NCBI RefSeq assembly: GCF_900105025.1
Contig: NZ_LT629759.1
Location: forward strand, 1,674,001 to 1,738,000
Direction of reading: 5' to 3'
Source of the DNA: Parafannyhessea umbonata
Lineage (GTDB): Bacteria > Actinomycetota > Coriobacteriia > Coriobacteriales > Atopobiaceae
DNA: 64,000 nt
In this document: positions 11,554 to 32,504 of the stretch, one piece after another
How positions within the stretch are numbered: position 1 is the first letter of the stretch
How the letters are laid out: each line of letters starts with the position of its first letter
Position numbers and translations under genes: made by a program
Notes under the pieces: generated by a model
Database searches by the model: none
Seen by the model: the letters and a program-made list of their open reading frames with translations, nothing else
Told to the model about the DNA's origin: nothing

Positions 11554-13506
11554 CTAGATATCGAGCGCCGCGTGATAGCCCCAGTACACGGCGTTCGTGA
11601 TGGTCGATACGCGCGCGGCGTCGCCAATCACGCGGACGAAGGGTGCACTGTCCCGCAGCGCCTCGACCACGTCCGTCCTGGAACGCTGGCCAAGCGCGCA
11701 GATGACCGTCGTGCCCGGCACCAGGTGCTCGGCGCCGCTTGCGTCAGCGCATACGACGCCCTCGTCGGTTACGCGCAGACCCTTGTAGCCGGTGTGGACG
11801 GTCACGTACTTCTCGACCTCGCGAAGCAGCAGCGGGCGGTGCCGCACGTTCGCATCCGGCGCCAGCTCGTCGCGCATCTCGACAAGATGGACGCGCTTGC
11901 CCTCCTGTCCCAGGTGAATGGCGCACTCGCATCCCGCGAGGCCGCCGCCAAACACCACGACGTCATCGCTCACGCGGTCAACGTTCTTGTAGTAGTCGTT
12001 CACCACGACCACGTTGTCGCCGTCGAGTCCGGGGATGGGCGGCACGAGCGGCGAGGAGCCCACCGCCACGATGAGCGCATCCGCGCCTTCCGCCTCGACC
12101 AGCTCGGGCGTTACCTCGCAGTTCAGGCGAATCTGTACGCCGGCCCTGCGCGCCAGACGCTCGTAGGTTCCCGTGAGCTCGTACATCTCGTGCTTGAACG
12201 GAAGCGCGCGCTCGCTCTTGAGGATGCCTCCGAGCTCGTTCTCCTTCTCGCAAAGCAGCACGTCGTGGCCACGTCGCGCCGCAGTGTACGCCGCGTACAG
12301 GCCGCCGGGGCCGCCGCCCGCGACAAGCACCCTCTTGCAACGGGACTCCGGCACGGGGACGACCTCGTCGCCCTCGGACTCGCGGCCGATGAGCGGGTTC
12401 ACGGTGCAGCGGCGCGTGGACGTTGCCGCGCGCTCCGCCATGCACGTGAAGCAGCGCAGGCAGCGCACGATCTCGTCGTCTCGGCCCTCGGTCACCTTGC
12501 GCGGAAGGAAGGGATCGGCGAGAAGAGCGCGCGCCATGTACACAACGTCCGCCTGCCCTGAAGCCACGATCTTCTCCATTTGTTCCGGATCGTTCAGGCC
12601 TCCGATGGTTGCGACGGGCTTGCTCACGTGGCGCTTGATCTCTGCAGCGAGGTAGACGTTGCGGCCATGGGCCTCGAACATGGAGGGGTGGGTGATGCCG
12701 AACGTCTTCTGGTACGTGCCGGCCGAGACGTGGATGAGATCGACGTAGGGCTCTATCGCCTGGGCAATGCGCACGCCCTCCTCCAGGTCGTAGCCTCCCT
12801 CGCAGAACTCTGCGCCGCTCATGCGGAACTCGATCGGGAAGAACGGCCCCACGGCCTCGCGTACGGACTTGGCCACCTCGACGGCCAGGCGGCAACGGTT
12901 CTCGAGCGATCCGCCGTACTCGTCCGTCCTGTGGTTGAACAGGGGCGAGAGGAACTGGTTGATGAGCCAGCCATGGCCGCCGTGAATCATGAGCATCTCG
13001 AAGCCGGCGCGCTTTGCAAGCCCCGCCACGTGGCCGTAGGCGCGGACGATGTCCGCGATCTGCTCCTGCGAGAGGGCGCGAACGGCGACGCCGTCAGCGC
13101 GGAGGGCATCCGACGGACCCCACTGGTTAAGCCCGTGCTGGCGACTCTTGTCCGTCATGTACGTGCCGGCGAACATGCCGGAGTGCGAAAGCTCCAGCGA
13201 GGGGATGGCACCGTGACGGCGGATGGCGTCGGCGGTATACGTGGCGCACGCCAGGGAGTTGAGGATGGACTCGTCCAGGTGGTAGGCGTGGCTGCCGTCC
13301 GTCTGCGGGTGCACCATGCACTCGGACACGGTGACCGCACCTGCGCCGCCCTTGGCTCGAAGCTCATAGAACGCCGTCGACTTGGGACCGATGCAGCCGT
13401 CGTTCGTGATGTCCGTGCCACCCATGGGCGCGCTGAACATGCGGTTCCTGAACGTGGTCCTCCCAAGGGTGATGGGCTTGCAGAGGTTTGGGTACTTGCG
13501 CCGCAT
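11554..13506 (-). CDS. NADH:flavin oxidoreductase, old-yellow-enzyme/2,4-dienoyl-CoA reductase type
   Basis: A 650-residue flavo-iron-sulfur enoate/dienoyl reductase. Residues 1-330 form the OYE TIM barrel (FRNRMFSAPMGG, HGGHGWLINQFLSPLFNHRTDEYGG, RMSGAEF). A Cys cluster (CLRCFTCM, then a Cys 13 residues on) near residue 350 binds 4Fe-4S. The C-terminal half is an FAD/NAD(P) Rossmann domain (VLVAGGGPGGLYAA and VVVFGGGLAGCECA). It belongs to the group containing BaiCD-like and 2-enoate reductases; the substrate cannot be assigned. ATG 13506 has GGGAG six bases upstream and was preferred to the ATG 18 bases earlier. Confidence 0.88.
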   Translation of the reverse strand: MRRKYPNLCKPITLGRTTFRNRMFSAPMGGTDITNDGCIGPKSTAFYELRAKGGAGAVTVSECMVHPQTDGSHAYHLDESILNSLACATYTADAIRRHGAIPSLELSHSGMFAGTYMTDKSRQHGLNQWGPSDALRADGVAVRALSQEQIADIVRAYGHVAGLAKRAGFEMLMIHGGHGWLINQFLSPLFNHRTDEYGGSLENRCRLAVEVAKSVREAVGPFFPIEFRMSGAEFCEGGYDLEEGVRIAQAIEPYVDLIHVSAGTYQKTFGITHPSMFEAHGRNVYLAAEIKRHVSKPVATIGGLNDPEQMEKIVASGQADVVYMARALLADPFLPRKVTEGRDDEIVRCLRCFTCMAERAATSTRRCTVNPLIGRESEGDEVVPVPESRCKRVLVAGGGPGGLYAAYTAARRGHDVLLCEKENELGGILKSERALPFKHEMYELTGTYERLARRAGVQIRLNCEVTPELVEAEGADALIVAVGSSPLVPPIPGLDGDNVVVVNDYYKNVDRVSDDVVVFGGGLAGCECAIHLGQEGKRVHLVEMRDELAPDANVRHRPLLLREVEKYVTVHTGYKGLRVTDEGVVCADASGAEHLVPGTTVICALGQRSRTDVVEALRDSAPFVRVIGDAARVSTITNAVYWGYHAALDI

Positions 13507-16833: not shown

Positions 16834-16846
16834 GGGCGAGAAGAAC
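16834..16846 (+). repeat. GGGCGAGAAGAAC dispersed repeat upstream of purF-like gene
   Basis: An intergenic copy of the window-wide repeat, 105 bp upstream of the purF-like start. On the minus strand it is followed four bases later by TATACT, a plausible -10 element for that gene. Confidence 0.7.
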
Positions 16847-25352: not shown

Positions 25353-27170
25353 CTAGAACATGAGCGTCATGCCAGCGGGAGCCTCCTTGTCCACGGCATC
25401 AGCCACGCCGTTGACGTCCGCGCGCAGCCACGCCGCCTCGCGCTCGGACGTGGCGGCGTCCGTGGCCCTCGCCTGCGCCAGGTGCACGGCCTCCCTGCGC
25501 ACCGCTTCCGGAAACTCCAGGTAGCGCCTGTAGCAGCTCAGCGCACGCACCGCGTCGCAGCTGCAGTACGCGGCATCGAAGCTCGCACGCTCCTCCAGGC
25601 CGCGCAGACCGCACACCTCCACGCGCCCAAAGAACAGCGTGTCCAGGTACGTCCATCCGTCGCGCATGCCAATGTCCGCAAAGCGCAGCAGGGCGCACAC
25701 GTAGCCCAGCGTCTGCCTCATACCCGGGTCGCGGTTCACGGCAAGGTAGCCGCTCACTGCCTCAAGCAGCAGCTCCGCCGCGTCCACGGACCGTGCGTCG
25801 CGCACGCGCCAGCGCTGGTAGTGCGCCAGACGCCTGGCCAAGAGCTCGCGTCCCTCCGCCGTCGCGGCCGCATCCGCCCAGCGCGCGCCCGCCATCGCTC
25901 CGTCCACGGCCGCGATCAGCCGCTCGTTCGGCTCGAACCTGCTTGCGCCCGCACCCGCGGTCACGCCCGCAACAGCAGGGCCGTCCTTCTCGCCCGCACC
26001 CGTCTTGCTAGGCGCGTCACCCGCGCCCGGCACGACGCCCGCGCCTTCCGCCACGCCCTCGTCAAAGCCAAACGCAAGGCACAGGCCGCCGTCCGCGTCC
26101 ACGTCCAGCGTCGCCACGTTGACGGAGTCGTCCGCGTGCAGGCGAACGGTCGCCTCTGCCTCAAAGTGGTTCGCCACCTGGTCGATCCTGCGCGCGCCCA
26201 GGCCGCTCTCATGCGCCTCGCGGGCAATCGCGTCCGCCGCCGCGTCGGAAATCCTGAACGCGCGTCCGGCCCCCAGCAGGTTGCTCACGCGACGCTCCAG
26301 GCTCCGCTCGGAGCCCTTCACGATCTGCCGCAGGCTTGCGAACGTCAGCGTCGGCACGCACACCACCGCGCCAAAGCGCCCCACAAACTCGGGCATGAAC
26401 CCCCAGCTCACAAGGTCCTGCAGGTTCATGCGCGCCCTCAGCTCGTCTGTGGTCAGGAGCCCCGGCGCCGCAGAGCCCGCGCCCGCAAGCTCGAGCCCAC
26501 TGCTCAGCAGGCGCTTCCGCACTATGCCCTCGATCCCCATGAACGCGCCGGCAAACACGTTCAGCACGCGCCCCGCGTCCAGGGTCACCTCGCGCTGGCC
26601 CTGGGCCTCCGGCGCCAGCTCCAGCGTCCCGCCATCCAGAAGCTTCAGGAAGTTGCCCTGGCTGTCAAAGCTCCGGCCGCCCTCGCGCGTCTTGCGCACC
26701 AGCTTGTCCGCCTCGTCCCAAAACGCGAGCACCGGCCGTCCGTCGCTTTTCTCCATCACGCCGGCCACGCGCCTCAGCTCGCTGCTCACGGAGTCGCCAA
26801 CCCATCCGGCGCCTGTGATGCCAGAGCAGTCTATGCTCACCAGCTCCAGCCCCATGACCTTCGCGACCACCTTCATGATGAAGCTCTTGCCGCTTGCCGT
26901 GCTGCCGCTCAGCATGAACGCGCACGCACGAGGCAGGTCCATGTCGTCCACGCCGCGGGCGCGCATCTCCATGCGCTGCAGGCACGAGTACGTCAGCCCC
27001 ACCACCTCGCGGAGCACGTCCTCCTGCCCCACCACGTAGCGCCGGCACTCCGCAAGCACCTCGTCGCGCGGTCTCGCCAGAATGGACTCGATCGCCTCCA
27101 CCGCCCCGGCGGAGTCTCCCGCCGCAGCGAAGCCGCCCGCGGCCGCAGTCCCAAATCGCACGTCCGACAT
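25353..27170 (-). CDS. ClpX-like AAA+ ATPase with a large unknown C-terminal domain
   Basis: 605 residues. About residues 40-330 match the ClpX/HslU AAA+ core: VVGQEDVLREV, Walker A SGSTASGKSF, WVGDSVSSELRR, Walker B PVLAFWDEADKL, and GFMPEFVGRF at sensor 2. No N-terminal zinc-binding domain of true ClpX is present. Residues after about 430 form an unfamiliar helical domain, following an Ala/Gly-rich linker that contains a copy of the dispersed repeat (25983-25995, encoding AGEKDG). Probably a specialised unfoldase or regulator rather than the ClpP partner. The start follows GGGAGG. Confidence 0.8.
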   Translation of the reverse strand: MSDVRFGTAAAGGFAAAGDSAGAVEAIESILARPRDEVLAECRRYVVGQEDVLREVVGLTYSCLQRMEMRARGVDDMDLPRACAFMLSGSTASGKSFIMKVVAKVMGLELVSIDCSGITGAGWVGDSVSSELRRVAGVMEKSDGRPVLAFWDEADKLVRKTREGGRSFDSQGNFLKLLDGGTLELAPEAQGQREVTLDAGRVLNVFAGAFMGIEGIVRKRLLSSGLELAGAGSAAPGLLTTDELRARMNLQDLVSWGFMPEFVGRFGAVVCVPTLTFASLRQIVKGSERSLERRVSNLLGAGRAFRISDAAADAIAREAHESGLGARRIDQVANHFEAEATVRLHADDSVNVATLDVDADGGLCLAFGFDEGVAEGAGVVPGAGDAPSKTGAGEKDGPAVAGVTAGAGASRFEPNERLIAAVDGAMAGARWADAAATAEGRELLARRLAHYQRWRVRDARSVDAAELLLEAVSGYLAVNRDPGMRQTLGYVCALLRFADIGMRDGWTYLDTLFFGRVEVCGLRGLEERASFDAAYCSCDAVRALSCYRRYLEFPEAVRREAVHLAQARATDAATSEREAAWLRADVNGVADAVDKEAPAGMTLMF

Positions 27171-27251: not shown

Positions 27252-27264
27252 GGGCGAGAAGAAC
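27252..27264 (+). repeat. GGGCGAGAAGAAC dispersed repeat in a divergent promoter
   Basis: An intergenic copy between the divergent ClpX-like and HNH genes, followed by the CGCCCCCTTGGC extension. It ends 19 bases before a TATAGT -10 element (27284-27289), so it covers the -35 position of the HNH gene promoter. Confidence 0.75.
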
Positions 27265-27283
27265 CCGCCCCCTTGGCCGCGAA

Positions 27284-27301
27284 TATAGTACTCTGGTCGC
27301 A
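27284..27301 (+). promoter_or_regulatory. promoter of HNH gene giving a likely leaderless mRNA
   Basis: TATAGT at 27284-27289 is only 11 bases before ATG 27301, and no Shine-Dalgarno sequence is visible. Transcription would begin at or next to the start codon. Confidence 0.5.
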
Positions 27302-28350
27302 TGATGAGTGAGCCCTTCATACTTGACTGCGACGTGTACGCCCTCTCGCTTGAGCGCGCGAGCGGCCTCGTCCCTCCCGAGTTCCTTTCGGCATACCAGA
27401 GGTTCATCGACTACGAGGGACGCCAGATCCCTCGTCTTCCGCGCGGGGAAGAGGAAATGGCACGCGGCCTTGACGTCAAGCTTGCGTCACAGCGAGGCAT
27501 TCACTCCCCCAACTACGACTCCCTTCCATCCCTCGGGGCAGGCAAGCGCAAGTATGCGCTGTCAATCCACTCGGAGGGCCAGACATACTACGACGACAAG
27601 GACGTCGTTACGCGGCCGGATGGAACGTGGATCCTCGACTACAAGGCTCACCGTCCAGCCGATGGCAAGAAACCAACGGATCAGTCCACGTCATACCTCA
27701 TGAACAATCTGGACGACGGCGTACCAGTCGGCGTAATGATCCGAAACAAATCCGGATACGCTGTCCTCGGCCTCGCATTCGTCGAGCAGTACAACACCGA
27801 GACTGATTCCTTCACCATCCACGGCCCCGTGAACGCTCAGACGGAGGCCGACCGCAAGTTCTATCTGATAAGGGACTCAGACCTCACGCAAGAGGAGCGT
27901 CAGGAGCTCGACCGTCTAAAAGCGCAGATTACCGCCGAGAGGGACGACCGCATCCGTCGCTTCGTCACCTCGGTCGTACGTCAACGTCAGGACTCGTTTC
28001 GCAAGGCACTTCTCGAAGCCTACAACGGCACGTGCCCGGTCACTCATGCGGATGTGAACGAGGCGCTACAGGCGGCACATATCGACCGGTATCGAGGCTC
28101 TAACTCGCAAGTTGTCAGCAACGGCGTCCTCTTGCGCGCCGACATACATAGTCTGTACGACGCAAACCTGCTTTCTATCGAACCAGAGACTCACATCCTC
28201 CGACTCTCTCATCGTCTGGACTCCTCTGCATATCGAGCATTCGCCAATGAGCAGCTCAAGATGCCCACGGGCAAGGCCGCCCCTGACGACGAGCTTTTGG
28301 AAATGCAATACAAGCGCTTTCTGGCCGCTCAGAAGAGCATGGCGTCTTAG
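27301..28350 (+). CDS. HNH endonuclease with SRA/YDG-like N-terminal domain
   Basis: 349 residues. The C-terminal HNH_2-type nuclease reads GTCPVTHADVNEALQAAHID, then NGVLLRADIHSLYDANLL, giving the His-Asn-His metal site. The N-terminal half (GIHSPNYDSLP, YALSIHSEGQTYYDDKDVV, DGVPVGVMIR, YAVLGLAFVEQYN) resembles the modified-base-reading domains of McrA/SRA-HNH proteins, which would make it a modification-dependent (type IV-like) nuclease; that part is inference. The gene is less GC-rich and uses a wider codon set than its neighbours. Its stop overlaps the stop of the convergent helicase gene by three bases. Confidence 0.82.
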   Translation: MMSEPFILDCDVYALSLERASGLVPPEFLSAYQRFIDYEGRQIPRLPRGEEEMARGLDVKLASQRGIHSPNYDSLPSLGAGKRKYALSIHSEGQTYYDDKDVVTRPDGTWILDYKAHRPADGKKPTDQSTSYLMNNLDDGVPVGVMIRNKSGYAVLGLAFVEQYNTETDSFTIHGPVNAQTEADRKFYLIRDSDLTQEERQELDRLKAQITAERDDRIRRFVTSVVRQRQDSFRKALLEAYNGTCPVTHADVNEALQAAHIDRYRGSNSQVVSNGVLLRADIHSLYDANLLSIEPETHILRLSHRLDSSAYRAFANEQLKMPTGKAAPDDELLEMQYKRFLAAQKSMAS

Positions 28351-31300
28351 CTTGCGAGCCTGCTTGTCTTCCGCAGGAACTTCGTTGGCATAGGCCTTTC
28401 GAGATGCCAGACGATGCTCATCGGCCTCGAACCCTCGTGCGAGACATAGTCGACCATCCCCAGGAACGTAAACGGCGCCGTACCGGCAGCATCCTTCTTG
28501 AACTCCCTCACAAAGAGAAGGACCTTCGACCCTCTCTCACCATGATGTATATAGCGCTGGCCGGTCTTGCTTGTATCGCTTGTACTGCTTTGGCTCTGCC
28601 AGTGGAATAGGCTCTCGCTAATGGAGTAGTCCTCGTACATGGTCGATGGCGAGTAGTCTTTCTCCGACTTGTTCAACGTATTGAGGAGCACGTCGCAGCG
28701 CTTTTCTGGCAACCACTTGACTCCAAGTCCCCACATACCCTTTAGATTGAGGTGGTCAAGCCCAACGAGTATCTGGTTGCTTGTATATTGGCAATGAAGA
28801 TCGAGGGGACACTCGAAGCCAGGGTTCACCGGCTCGTCAATGAAGTCGATGTGGTCGAGGTTGAAACGCAGAAGTTCGCAGATCTCCGCAAACATGGTCT
28901 CGTTTCTCAGAAGTCTCCTCAGATCCTCAACCGTCTCCTCTCGAAGCTCTGACTCAGTCGAATTCGGCAGAAGAGTGACCTGAAACATTCTCAGCCAGCT
29001 CATCTCCAACTCTCCAAAGTCACTTTTTCCCTCGGAAATCTGCGGCAGCGCTCGCAGCAGGAACCTGATCCAGCGTCGAGAGTCAATGGAGCAGATGCGC
29101 GCCAAGGCCTTTGTCAAAAGTTCCTCGTCCGGATCGAAGAAGTCGTTCTTCTCACCTGCCTCCACGCACAGCCGAGAAAAGCTGTACTTGCCGAATAGCA
29201 TCTTGTGGTCGACCCCCGTCGACGCAAGAAAGTTGGAAAGCGTGAGATCAAGGCCCGTATCCTCGGTGAAGGTGGAGATCCGGCTCACGAGACCGAACTT
29301 CATGCCATAGGATTGGCTCACGTTCTTTAGGACGAACTCTGCCGCGACCTTCTCGAGGTGTATGTAGCACCCCTTCGGCACAGACGAAAAGCCTTCTTTG
29401 ATCTCTCGATTCATTGGCTTGTGCGTGTTCGAAAGCAGAGCGGAGAACTTGGATTCGAAGTCGTAGTGTTTGTTCTGCTGGCCAATGAAATCCAAGACCG
29501 TGAGGCAATCCTTACCCTCAGAGAGCCTGAGGCCTCGTCCGAGCTGCTGCAGGAACACCGTGAGAGATTCCGTCGGACGGAGGAACAGCACCGTGTTGAC
29601 CTCGGGGATGTCAACGCCTTCGTTGTAGACGTCTACCGTGAAGACGAACTTGATCTCGCCCGTCGCGAGTTGCCGCCTTGCTGCGTTACGCTTGTCCTCC
29701 GGCGTCTGCCCCGTAACAGAGACGGAACTTATCCCATGGTCGTTGAACTGCTTCGCCATGAAGTTGGCGTGCTTGACTGAGACGCAGAATCCGATGCCTC
29801 GCACGGATTCGAGGTCCGTCACGTATCTGTCCAGCGACCGGATAATATGCTCGGCACGTCGTCTTGCCTGATGCTCCTGATACACATACACGTCTTCGAG
29901 CTGGGAAGTTTCGTAACCACCACGCGACCACTTCAGCTGGCTCAGATCGACCTCGTCTGTAACGCCAAAGTACTGGAACGGGCAGAGCAGCTTCCGATCA
30001 ATAGCCTCTGGCAGTCTGATCTCGGCGGCGATCCTGTTGTCGAACCACGGCAGAACGCTCTTGCCATCCATTCGCTCTGGGGTACCCGTGAGGCCCAGCA
30101 GCACCTTTGGCGAGAAGTGCTCCAGTAGCCGTTGGTACGATGGCGCGGGAGCATGATGGAACTCGTCCACCACAATGTAGTCGTAGTAGGTCGGGTCAAG
30201 CGAGCCCGTTAGTCCCCTCGAATTGATAGACTGCACCGACGCAAAAAGATGGTCGAAGCTCTCTGGAGTGTAGGACCCAACGAGGAGGTCGCCGAAGTTC
30301 GCATCGCGGAGAACACTGCGATAGGTCGCAAGAGCCTGCTTAAGGATCTCCTCGCGATGCGCCGCAAACAGCATACGCGCTGGCTTGCCATCGTTGTAAC
30401 GGGCGCAGAACTCCCTGTAGTCAAATGCCGATATGACCGTCTTTCCCGTGCCCGTTGCGGCAATAACAAGGTTTCGCCAGTGATCACCAACCTCGCGCTC
30501 TGCACGGAGCCGGTCGAGGATCTCGCGTTGGAACGGGTACGGTCTGAGATCAAAGAAGTAAACAAGGTCGCTTGGGGTCTTGTCTCCACGCTCCCGCTTT
30601 ACGGCTTCCACAAAGCGATCGTGCTGACTCTTGTCGTAGGGCTCAAAGTCGTTTGACTCCCAATATGACTCGAACGTCGCGCGTATCTTCGCCATCGTGT
30701 CAGGCAGCTCTCGCTGGGCAACCTTCACATTCCACTCGAGACCGCTCGTAATGGCAGGGTTAGACAGATTGGATGAGCCCACGTAAGCGGTCGTGAAGCC
30801 CGTCTTGCGATAGAACACATATGCCTTCGCGTGTAAGCGAGTGCCCCTTGTGTCGTACGATACTTTCACCTCCGCGTTGGGAAGCTCGCTCAGTTCGTCG
30901 ATAGCCTTAACGTCGGTTGCACCTATATATGACGTTGTAATTACTCTGAGTTTGCCGCCCCTTTCGGAGAACTCCCTAAGCTCTGGCAAGATGATGCGAA
31001 GTCCCGGCCACTTGATAAATGAGACGAGCATGTCGATTCGATCCGCCGAGGCAATCTCTTTCTTGAGCTCGGACCCCATTGATGGCTCATGCCTGGATCC
31101 CGTGAAGAGAGAGCTCTGTGACATTGGGGTCTCTGGACGCAGGGTGTCACGTTCGCTCTTCCCACGAATCTGGTGCACCACCTTTGGGACAAGGTAGAGC
31201 AGCTGGTGGGAATCACCCACAAGATCACTCGGCGAATCTAAGGCTCCGATCATCTTGTTGGTGAGCTGTATTTGGTTCTCGAGCGAGTCCTTGCCAGACT

Positions 31301-31475
31301 CGCTGATCCTTGCGAGGGCACTCTCGGCAACCTCAGCGACATATTCAGCAAGGATCTTCGGCGCTTCCGCATCGTCGATTTTGCGAAGCTCGGAGACAAG
31401 CTCATCCTTCTCGGACTCGAGCTCGTCTTTCAGTTCCCTGCTGATAGTTTGCTCATACAGACCCGGCTCCAGCAT
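28347..31475 (-). CDS. PLD-domain, DEAD/DEAH helicase and DUF3427 fusion protein
   Basis: 1042 residues in three parts. A phospholipase-D-like domain (about 130-300) carries RLHAKAYVF and AYVGSSNLSNP. The superfamily-2 helicase (about 330-720) has Walker A IAATGTGKTV, VVDEFHHAP, LLGLTGTPERMDG, VYNEGVDIPEVN and the arginine-finger motif QQLGRGLRLSEGK. A C-terminal DUF3427-type region follows (about 780-1040). Such fusions are found sporadically in defence islands. Codon use and lower GC mark it as acquired together with the convergent HNH gene. ATG 31475 follows GGGATGGGGG. It probably processes foreign or damaged DNA. Confidence 0.9.
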   Translation of the reverse strand: MLEPGLYEQTISRELKDELESEKDELVSELRKIDDAEAPKILAEYVAEVAESALARISESGKDSLENQIQLTNKMIGALDSPSDLVGDSHQLLYLVPKVVHQIRGKSERDTLRPETPMSQSSLFTGSRHEPSMGSELKKEIASADRIDMLVSFIKWPGLRIILPELREFSERGGKLRVITTSYIGATDVKAIDELSELPNAEVKVSYDTRGTRLHAKAYVFYRKTGFTTAYVGSSNLSNPAITSGLEWNVKVAQRELPDTMAKIRATFESYWESNDFEPYDKSQHDRFVEAVKRERGDKTPSDLVYFFDLRPYPFQREILDRLRAEREVGDHWRNLVIAATGTGKTVISAFDYREFCARYNDGKPARMLFAAHREEILKQALATYRSVLRDANFGDLLVGSYTPESFDHLFASVQSINSRGLTGSLDPTYYDYIVVDEFHHAPAPSYQRLLEHFSPKVLLGLTGTPERMDGKSVLPWFDNRIAAEIRLPEAIDRKLLCPFQYFGVTDEVDLSQLKWSRGGYETSQLEDVYVYQEHQARRRAEHIIRSLDRYVTDLESVRGIGFCVSVKHANFMAKQFNDHGISSVSVTGQTPEDKRNAARRQLATGEIKFVFTVDVYNEGVDIPEVNTVLFLRPTESLTVFLQQLGRGLRLSEGKDCLTVLDFIGQQNKHYDFESKFSALLSNTHKPMNREIKEGFSSVPKGCYIHLEKVAAEFVLKNVSQSYGMKFGLVSRISTFTEDTGLDLTLSNFLASTGVDHKMLFGKYSFSRLCVEAGEKNDFFDPDEELLTKALARICSIDSRRWIRFLLRALPQISEGKSDFGELEMSWLRMFQVTLLPNSTESELREETVEDLRRLLRNETMFAEICELLRFNLDHIDFIDEPVNPGFECPLDLHCQYTSNQILVGLDHLNLKGMWGLGVKWLPEKRCDVLLNTLNKSEKDYSPSTMYEDYSISESLFHWQSQSSTSDTSKTGQRYIHHGERGSKVLLFVREFKKDAAGTAPFTFLGMVDYVSHEGSRPMSIVWHLERPMPTKFLRKTSRLAS

Positions 31476-31577
31476 TACGCCCCCATCCCTTGCGCCAATC
31501 TGCACCAGGATCGCGCACGAGCCTCCTGCGTGCAAATCGAAAACCGGGAGCGGGAGACAAGCAATCCAGGTACGCAC

Positions 31578-31590
31578 GTTCTTCTCGCCC
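31578..31590 (-). repeat. GGGCGAGAAGAAC dispersed repeat upstream of helicase gene
   Basis: An intergenic copy about 100 bp upstream of the helicase start and oriented with that gene. Nothing else is recognised between 31476 and 31676. Confidence 0.7.
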
Positions 31591-31676: not shown

Positions 31677-32504
31677 CTATCGCAGCCAGTCCAGGATCGC
31701 GGCGGAAACCTCACCGGGGTAGTCGCGCGGTCCGTTGTGGCCGCCCGGCATGACGGCGGACGTTGCGCCAAGGCCCTGGCACAAAAAGTCCAGGTTGCGC
31801 GCGTGGTAGGTGGCGTCGCTCTGGCGGCCGATGCACAAAAGGACAGGCACGCCGGAGCCATGGATGGCGTCGTAGTCCGGCGCGTAGTCGAACGCCCAGG
31901 TCTCGCGGGAGAAGCTCGTCTGCATGTTGCGCTCGCGGCATTGCAGCTCGCGCTCGGAGTACGGCACGACGGGCTCGCCAATGGACTCGCGCTGGGTGGT
32001 GAGGTAGAGCGCCGTGCTGGAGCGATGCCTTGCAAGTGCCTTGCGGGCGCGCTCGATGTTGGCGAAGACCTCGTCGTCGGGGTCCAGGCCGCAAAAGATG
32101 GGCGGCTCATACGCCACCAGCCTGCGGAAGAGCCGCGGCGCGCGCTCCAGCAGCCGGAGCGCCACCACGGCGCCAAGGCTGTGCGCGACGACGTCTGCCC
32201 GGCCGCCCGCCGCGCGAATTACGGATGCCAGGTCGCGCGCCTGCGCGTCGAGCGACCAGTCGCCGTCCAGTGCGTCCGCGCTTTGACCGCAGCCACGACG
32301 GTCGTAGGCGACGATGCGCCGCGCCGGCGCGCACGCAGCGAAGCTGTCATAAAAGCTGGAATCAACGCCCGCGCCGTGCACCAACACCAGGGGAAGGCCG
32401 TCCGGCCGCGGTGGCACAACGTTGCGCACGAACAACCGGGAGGAGGGGCCATGCTCCCCCGTCACCTGCAGCGGCGTGTCCGTGTGCTGCGGATCTTTGG
32501 CCAT
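31677..32504 (-). CDS. alpha/beta hydrolase
   Basis: A 275-residue serine hydrolase of the epoxide-hydrolase/haloperoxidase-like group. LVLVHGAGVDSSFYDS carries the oxyanion loop, DRRGCGQS a typical turn, VAHSLGAVVAL the nucleophile Ser, and GGHNGPRDYP near the C-terminus the His. AGAGGAAGG lies before ATG 32504. Divergent from the HD-domain gene. Substrate unknown. Confidence 0.87.
   Translation of the reverse strand: MAKDPQHTDTPLQVTGEHGPSSRLFVRNVVPPRPDGLPLVLVHGAGVDSSFYDSFAACAPARRIVAYDRRGCGQSADALDGDWSLDAQARDLASVIRAAGGRADVVAHSLGAVVALRLLERAPRLFRRLVAYEPPIFCGLDPDDEVFANIERARKALARHRSSTALYLTTQRESIGEPVVPYSERELQCRERNMQTSFSRETWAFDYAPDYDAIHGSGVPVLLCIGRQSDATYHARNLDFLCQGLGATSAVMPGGHNGPRDYPGEVSAAILDWLR

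Follow-up and report, generated by a model that had tools for sequence, protein, structure and literature searches.

Two convergent genes of Parafannyhessea umbonata, called P1 and P2 here, probably encode two separate modification-dependent (type IV-like) restriction enzymes, housed in a chromosomal defence hotspot and directed against DNA that carries 5mC or 5hmC. We propose that P1 would flip out and read 5mC or 5hmC with its SRA domain and that its HNH nuclease would cut close by, as a dimer and independently of NTP. In P2, the DUF3427 region would house an SRA-like reader for modified cytosine and the SF2 part would be a motor that translocates on ATP, with cleavage by paired PLD domains at the meeting point of two motors. 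Two independent routes would restrict plasmids with C5 methylation and phage DNA that is methylated or hydroxymethylated. We infer the modification that is read, the cleavage and the benefit of carrying both P1 and P2; the idea that modified DNA is destroyed here, put forward in the first-pass annotation, gains support from the membership of both genes in modification-dependent restriction families.

Results and discussion

Layout and composition of the pair

The window, by which we mean the whole stretch of 64,000 nucleotides that was analysed (G000:C1:1674001-1738000), comes from a one-contig genome of 2.35 Mb, that of what we take to be a gut-type bacterium. P1 is an open reading frame of 349 amino acids on the plus strand (27301-28350), and P2 one of 1042 amino acids on the minus strand (28347-31475), with an ATG start at 31475 and a longer frame that opens at 31577. 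The two meet in a four-base overlap (28347-28350), the stop codon of P1 (TAG) occupying 28348-28350 and that of P2 (TAA) being read from 28349 to 28347. In a sister species (G001, locus L032) the genes are spaced by about 9 bases and do not overlap, P2 ending at 11879 and P1 at 11889. The GC content of P1 (0.58) and P2 (0.55) is to be set against 0.67-0.70 in five neighbour genes, and their GC3 (0.71 and 0.69, respectively) against 0.86-0.92 in five neighbour genes, so that the earlier description of 27301-31475 as a tail-to-tail pair with overlapping stops and a composition lower in GC and GC3 than its GC-rich neighbours is confirmed.

P1 joins a predicted SRA-like fold to an HNH nuclease

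In P1, Pfam sees HNH_2 alone (1.5e-8); the SRA-like region of P1 itself has no Pfam match, and SAD_SRA appears weakly in some of its relatives, with a best E of 0.016 in one set (2 of 19 relatives) and of 0.07 in another (3 of 34). A structure prediction from the single sequence (pLDDT 37) was replaced by an AlphaFold2 model built with 34 related sequences, with pLDDT 87.9 and pTM 0.78. Foldseek placed TagI first among the matches to this model (2.1e-7), followed by VcaM4I and the SRA complexes of SUVH6 and SUVH5 (the latter with 5mC DNA). With VIA-align, residues 27-182 of the model matched the SUVH5 SRA-DNA complexes with Z 12.2 (rmsd 3.0-3.1 A over 127-130 residues) and the HNH half matched VcaM4I with Z 12.3; the SRA of SauUSI gave only Z 5.1. 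TagI itself reached Z 12.9 with an rmsd of 14.0 over both domains, which means that the single domains match and that their mutual placement does not. At the level of sequence, profiles of the P1 family searched against PDB sequences found the HNH of VcaM4I as the sole entry, TagI and the SRA domains being absent.

The predicted SRA domain spans about residues 25-184 (27373-27852, plus strand), and in the 34 sequences G66, I67, P70, W110, P142, L158 and F171 are invariant within it. The HNH nuclease, recognised by HNH_2 and by the match to VcaM4I, spans about residues 226-342 (27976-28326, plus strand); H260, N274, H283 and D287 (codons at 28078, 28120, 28147 and 28159) are invariant in 34/34 sequences, and the spacing of N274, H283 and D287 is that of N245, H254 and D258 as reported for TagI (PMC6212794). 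The model matches support an SRA-like reader fold for the N-terminal region, and the first reading of P1 as an SRA-like reader joined to an HNH nuclease is borne out by HNH_2 together with the likeness of the model to TagI and to SRA domains. P1 is a member of a known SRA-HNH kind, in a branch that sequence libraries label merely as "HNH endonuclease" and that is spread over Atopobiaceae, Collinsella, Rhizobium, Caballeronia and a Vibrio phage. For many genes of this branch, a label as probable enzymes dependent on 5mC/5hmC can now replace the present one.

Two relatives show other arrangements. In Sinorhizobium (L102:4251-5390) a DUF3427-like region is fused to the same kind of HNH, which indicates that this HNH has different readers. 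At L048:6101-9964 one long frame holds both a Sau3AI-type enzyme and a C5-methyltransferase and adjoins a P1-like protein, which, with its HNH residues changed, is possibly a nuclease-less reader.

P2 is a SauUSI-type enzyme

All the Pfam domains of P2 lie above the Pfam cut-off and follow one another on the minus strand: a PLDc_2 nuclease domain at 30660-31058 (6.9e-12; the HxK motif, HAKAY, at 30833-30819), an SF2 helicase made of ResIII and Helicase_C at 29523-30545 (5.3e-30 and 5e-14; Walker A, ATGTGKT, at 30458-30438, and the DEFHH box at 30170-30153), and a C-terminal DUF3427 part at 28374-28934 (1.9e-22) that is conserved across 12 close relatives. The best full-length model is mREase_IV of PADLOC (PDLC03659, 757 bits over residues 110-1031 of 1041), and a search of PDB sequences with P2 returned 7clg, SauUSI, at 5e-93. 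The combination of a PLD nuclease-like domain, an SF2 helicase and DUF3427 read from the sequence in the first-pass annotation is thus upheld, and where that annotation had proposed comparing the genes with known type IV and helicase-nuclease systems, P2 matches SauUSI and mREase_IV, and the P1 model matches TagI.

In SauUSI the target-recognition domain at the C-terminus is reported to be an SRA fold that lies, alongside a coupler, in the DUF3427 region (PMC7913695), and the enzyme is described as an ATP-driven motor that translocates while the PLD domains cut (PMC7913695, PMC3874153). From DUF3427 homology and this structure paper, the C-terminus of P2 would likewise be an SRA fold.

One may ask whether P1 and P2 are simply unrelated nucleases of a hotspot, without a role in defence, for instance DNA repair genes or remnants in decay. 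The helicase of P2 does score with RadD and type I R profiles too, which such a view could invoke, but mREase_IV remains the best model over the full length of P2, the reading frames and catalytic residues of both genes are intact, and dN/dS between the two species (0.12 for P1 and 0.07 for P2) indicates purifying selection on both; we consider this explanation extremely improbable.

Self-tolerance and methyltransferases

The window genome has no match to the C5-methyltransferase family PF00145 at 1e-10 and none to the methyltransferase family PF01555; PF02384 (N6_Mtase) has two matches, both away from the pair, and Pfam found no methyltransferase among the scanned neighbour proteins of P1 and P2. 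That no C5-methyltransferase could be detected in the host fits a pair of 5mC-dependent enzymes. Against this reading, the sister species G001 carries P1, P2 and one C5-methyltransferase, so that there the specificities would have to differ, or else one of the partners would be silent; in Pectobacterium, a conflict between a restriction-modification system and a methylation-dependent enzyme of the same genome is reported to have been resolved by silencing (PMC8989522).

Also against it, across 150 relatives, genomes with P1 show no significant depletion of C5-methyltransferases (11/20 against 10.7 expected, p=1.0), in a set of 20 genomes, two of them partial, whose match extends over the SRA region. 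For SauUSI-like genomes, defined by a best E of at most about 1e-65 (40 genomes, after nine weaker matches had been dropped as other helicases), the depletion is not significant (17/40 against 21.3 expected, p=0.14). In practical terms, the proposal means that these anaerobes should be transformed with dcm-minus DNA.

A different role for P1 is also conceivable, that of a conventional type II enzyme that uses its SRA-fold domain to read a sequence protected by a C5-methyltransferase. Six loci speak for it, in which a C5-methyltransferase piece adjoins P1-like genes (L041, with a remnant of 53 residues, L044, L045, L048, L126 and L151), one of them, L048, being the locus of Sau3AI and methyltransferase where the HNH residues of the P1-like protein are changed. 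Against this, the genome of the window has no PF00145 match, and at most P1-like loci no methyltransferase was found alongside (one query, 1e-4). We think that a type II role for P1 is quite unlikely; we keep it open for part of the P1 family, but not for the copy in the window, for which modification-dependent restriction is our preferred reading.

Does the pair recur as a module?

The first-pass annotation saw in the two genes a candidate module and asked whether they recur together in other genomes. They do so in the sister species G001 and in G053, and are not paired at most other P1 or P2 loci. A P1-like match covering the SRA region is present in 20 of the 150 relatives, and in 2 of the 19 of these that are not the window's own genome (G001 and G053) a P2-like gene adjoins it. 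A contig scan gave 1/80 among the matches listed, G001 again, with 40 of the 80 matches listed covering the SRA region; at L168 a weak helicase match (23%) stands beside a P1-like gene. Seen from the other side, 2 of 12 close P2 loci have a P1-like gene as neighbour, as do none of the P2-type genes at 22 loci of a phylum-wide sample, where the view extended about half a kilobase past the end of the helicase. These searches covered flanks of up to 10 kb, on contigs some of which are short.

G053 belongs to the same family as the window genome, and its pair is again tail-to-tail, with stops about 4 bases apart; its P1-like and P2-like proteins are 32% and 34% identical to those of the window, and both genes come from other branches than the window's. 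Over the 150 genomes, P1 and all SauUSI-like genes co-occur in 8 of 20 genomes (5.3 expected, p=0.18), and P1 and the close P2 branch in 5 genomes (1.6 expected, p=0.011, uncorrected for kinship).

These data bear on the hypothesis that P1 and P2 form one cooperating system, in which, for example, P2 would translocate and P1 would nick or finish at modified sites. The gene order shared by two species of the genus, the second tail-to-tail pairing in G053 from different branches of both families, and the excess of P1 with close P2 relatives (with the caveat on kinship given above) are what one would expect from it. However, adjacency is rare in every sample (2/19, 1/80 among the matches listed, 2/12 and 0/22), the co-occurrence of P1 with all SauUSI-like genes has a p of 0.18, and SauUSI and TagI are each reported to work alone. 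We therefore regard cooperation as unlikely, while granting that two independent tail-to-tail pairings leave it a small chance of being real. A dedicated two-gene module, recurring in one sister species and in G053, with P1-type and P2-type genes found alone elsewhere, is not supported; the pairing is better described as a rare hotspot neighbourhood than as a demonstrated or conserved two-gene system, and we retain the reading of two separate enzymes.

A slot with swappable contents

The pair sits between two genes of the minus strand, a ClpX-like AAA+ gene (25353-27170, a Pfam/profile match), which lies outside the pair and is found in 7 of 150 genomes, and an alpha/beta hydrolase (ABH) gene (31677-32504), which is kept on the same side in two other species of the genus. 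G001 has the order of the window (ABH, P2, P1, ClpX-like, LysR). In a third species of the genus (G002) the ClpX-like gene (79%) and the ABH gene (54%) are conserved as flanks, and the slot between them (L033:9904-13483) is filled by genes for an endonuclease that NCBIfam assigns to the Sau3AI family (407 bits), for a C5-methyltransferase of the Dcm type and for a further HNH protein. Nucleotide similarity at the slot ends on the left at 27280 and returns on the right at 31708. Since the flanks are kept and the contents swapped, we see in the ClpX-like gene a border of the slot that stands outside it; the suggestion that it might belong to the module is not supported, the pair being adjacent in 2 of the 7 carrier genomes and absent alongside in the other 5. 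The slot is a swappable defence hotspot holding two known enzyme kinds. Two species carry the modification-dependent pair there and the third a restriction-modification system that makes 5mC, which is a natural example of how two such kinds of defence conflict.

Two proteins of the slot region deserve mention in their own right. The C-terminal part of the HNH protein at L033 resembles phosphorothioate-DNA restriction enzymes, and the ClpX-like protein (25353-27170), whose 7 carrier genomes belong to three genera, has a C-terminal part of about 230 residues outside any Pfam family.

Between G000 and G001 the ClpX-like gene has a synonymous divergence of 0.24, against 1.47 in P1 and 0.66 in P2, which suggests that the island genes may differ in history from the core, codon bias being a possible confounder of this comparison. 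The window contains no tRNA, and a search for an integration signature found none, direct repeats shared by the two ends of the island reaching 11 bases at most.

P1 and P2 are each preceded by a short motif, GGGCGAGAAGAAC, at 27253 and at 31589 (minus strand), respectively. It occurs, often followed by CCCCCTTGG, in or near intergenic gaps, namely at 16835, 25295, 27253 and 31589 of the window and also in L032 and L033, and its 12-base core has 112 copies in the genome. A reversed-pattern control has 4 copies, a control that is unfair because some of the core copies are preferred codons for Gly-Glu-Lys-Asn. We considered GGGCGAGAAGAAC as a 13-base inverted repeat bounding the island and rejected this, given its presence in other gaps and the 112 copies of the core. 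It is a candidate regulatory motif, such as a shared promoter element.

NUDIX hydrolases beside SauUSI relatives

Relatives of SauUSI from another branch, that of model PDLC03658, have a neighbour of their own. At Coriobacteria-type loci (L064-L081, L100) a NUDIX hydrolase gene adjoins them in 12 of 18 cases (11 from the short stretches, plus L073 by way of the wider stretch L100); 10 of these are tail-to-tail, and in the other 2 it is upstream. Among plasmids of Bacillota and Bacteroidota (L200-L204) it lies directly upstream in 5 of the 6 loci examined; the sixth is a Fusobacterium record without annotation, in which no NUDIX was seen. Beside genes of the P2 branch it was found at none of 12 close P2 loci and none of 22 phylum loci, and the window genome has one such NUDIX hydrolase, unlinked to P1 and P2. 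The best model for the Staphylococcus copy is the pyrimidine (d)NTP diphosphatase of the E. coli NudG type, and for the Coriobacteria-type copy general Nudix and MutT, all of them below their cut-offs.

On the Lactobacillaceae plasmids L203 (5359-5679) and L204 (5382-5693) a MazG-like nucleotide pyrophosphohydrolase gene lies downstream of the SauUSI homologue, so that the helicase has a pyrophosphohydrolase gene on either side, the other being the NUDIX gene; the MazG-like copy of L203 has no NCBIfam match.

It is possible, though we hold it rather doubtful, that the neighbour of a SauUSI-type gene is its working partner: the NUDIX enzyme would clear 5-methyl-dCTP, so that salvaged 5mC is not built into host DNA and then cut, and in Parafannyhessea and G053 the SRA-HNH protein, in the same tail-to-tail position, would be a second cutter acting on the same mark. 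The role in clearing 5-methyl-dCTP is drawn by analogy from the biochemistry of Orf135, which is reported to hydrolyse this nucleotide (PMC10742078). MutT homologues beside SauUSI homologues are already in print for Streptococcus, in a figure legend (PMC7641849); our searches, which covered open-licence PMC papers, turned up no proposal that the SauUSI-linked NUDIX clears 5-methyl-dCTP.

Comparison with known systems

P1 is alike to TagI, ScoA3IV (Sco5333) and TbiR51I, as these are described (PMC6212794), in having an SRA fold (in P1 a predicted one) at the N-terminus, an HNH at the C-terminus and no NTPase. It differs from the TagI type in that its SRA part has no match at the level of sequence, in an extra N-terminal stretch, in a long helical linker and in the placement of the domains in the model. 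P2 resembles SauUSI and its homologue ScoA3I (Sco2863), which are reported to carry the PLD nuclease, the SF2 motor and the DUF3427-SRA end in one chain (PMC7913695, PMC3874153), and differs from SauUSI by about 110 extra residues at the N-terminus. The best model of P2 is PDLC03659 and that of the NUDIX-linked SauUSI branch is PDLC03658, which places them in different branches; ScoA3I would belong with P2 to the former.

The closest parallel for the co-residence of the two types is Streptomyces coelicolor A3(2), for which SauUSI-like, SRA-HNH and McrA enzymes are reported in a single genome (PMC6212794). The likeness is one of co-residence. P1 and P2 of the window are adjacent and convergent, and each of them is of a known enzyme kind.
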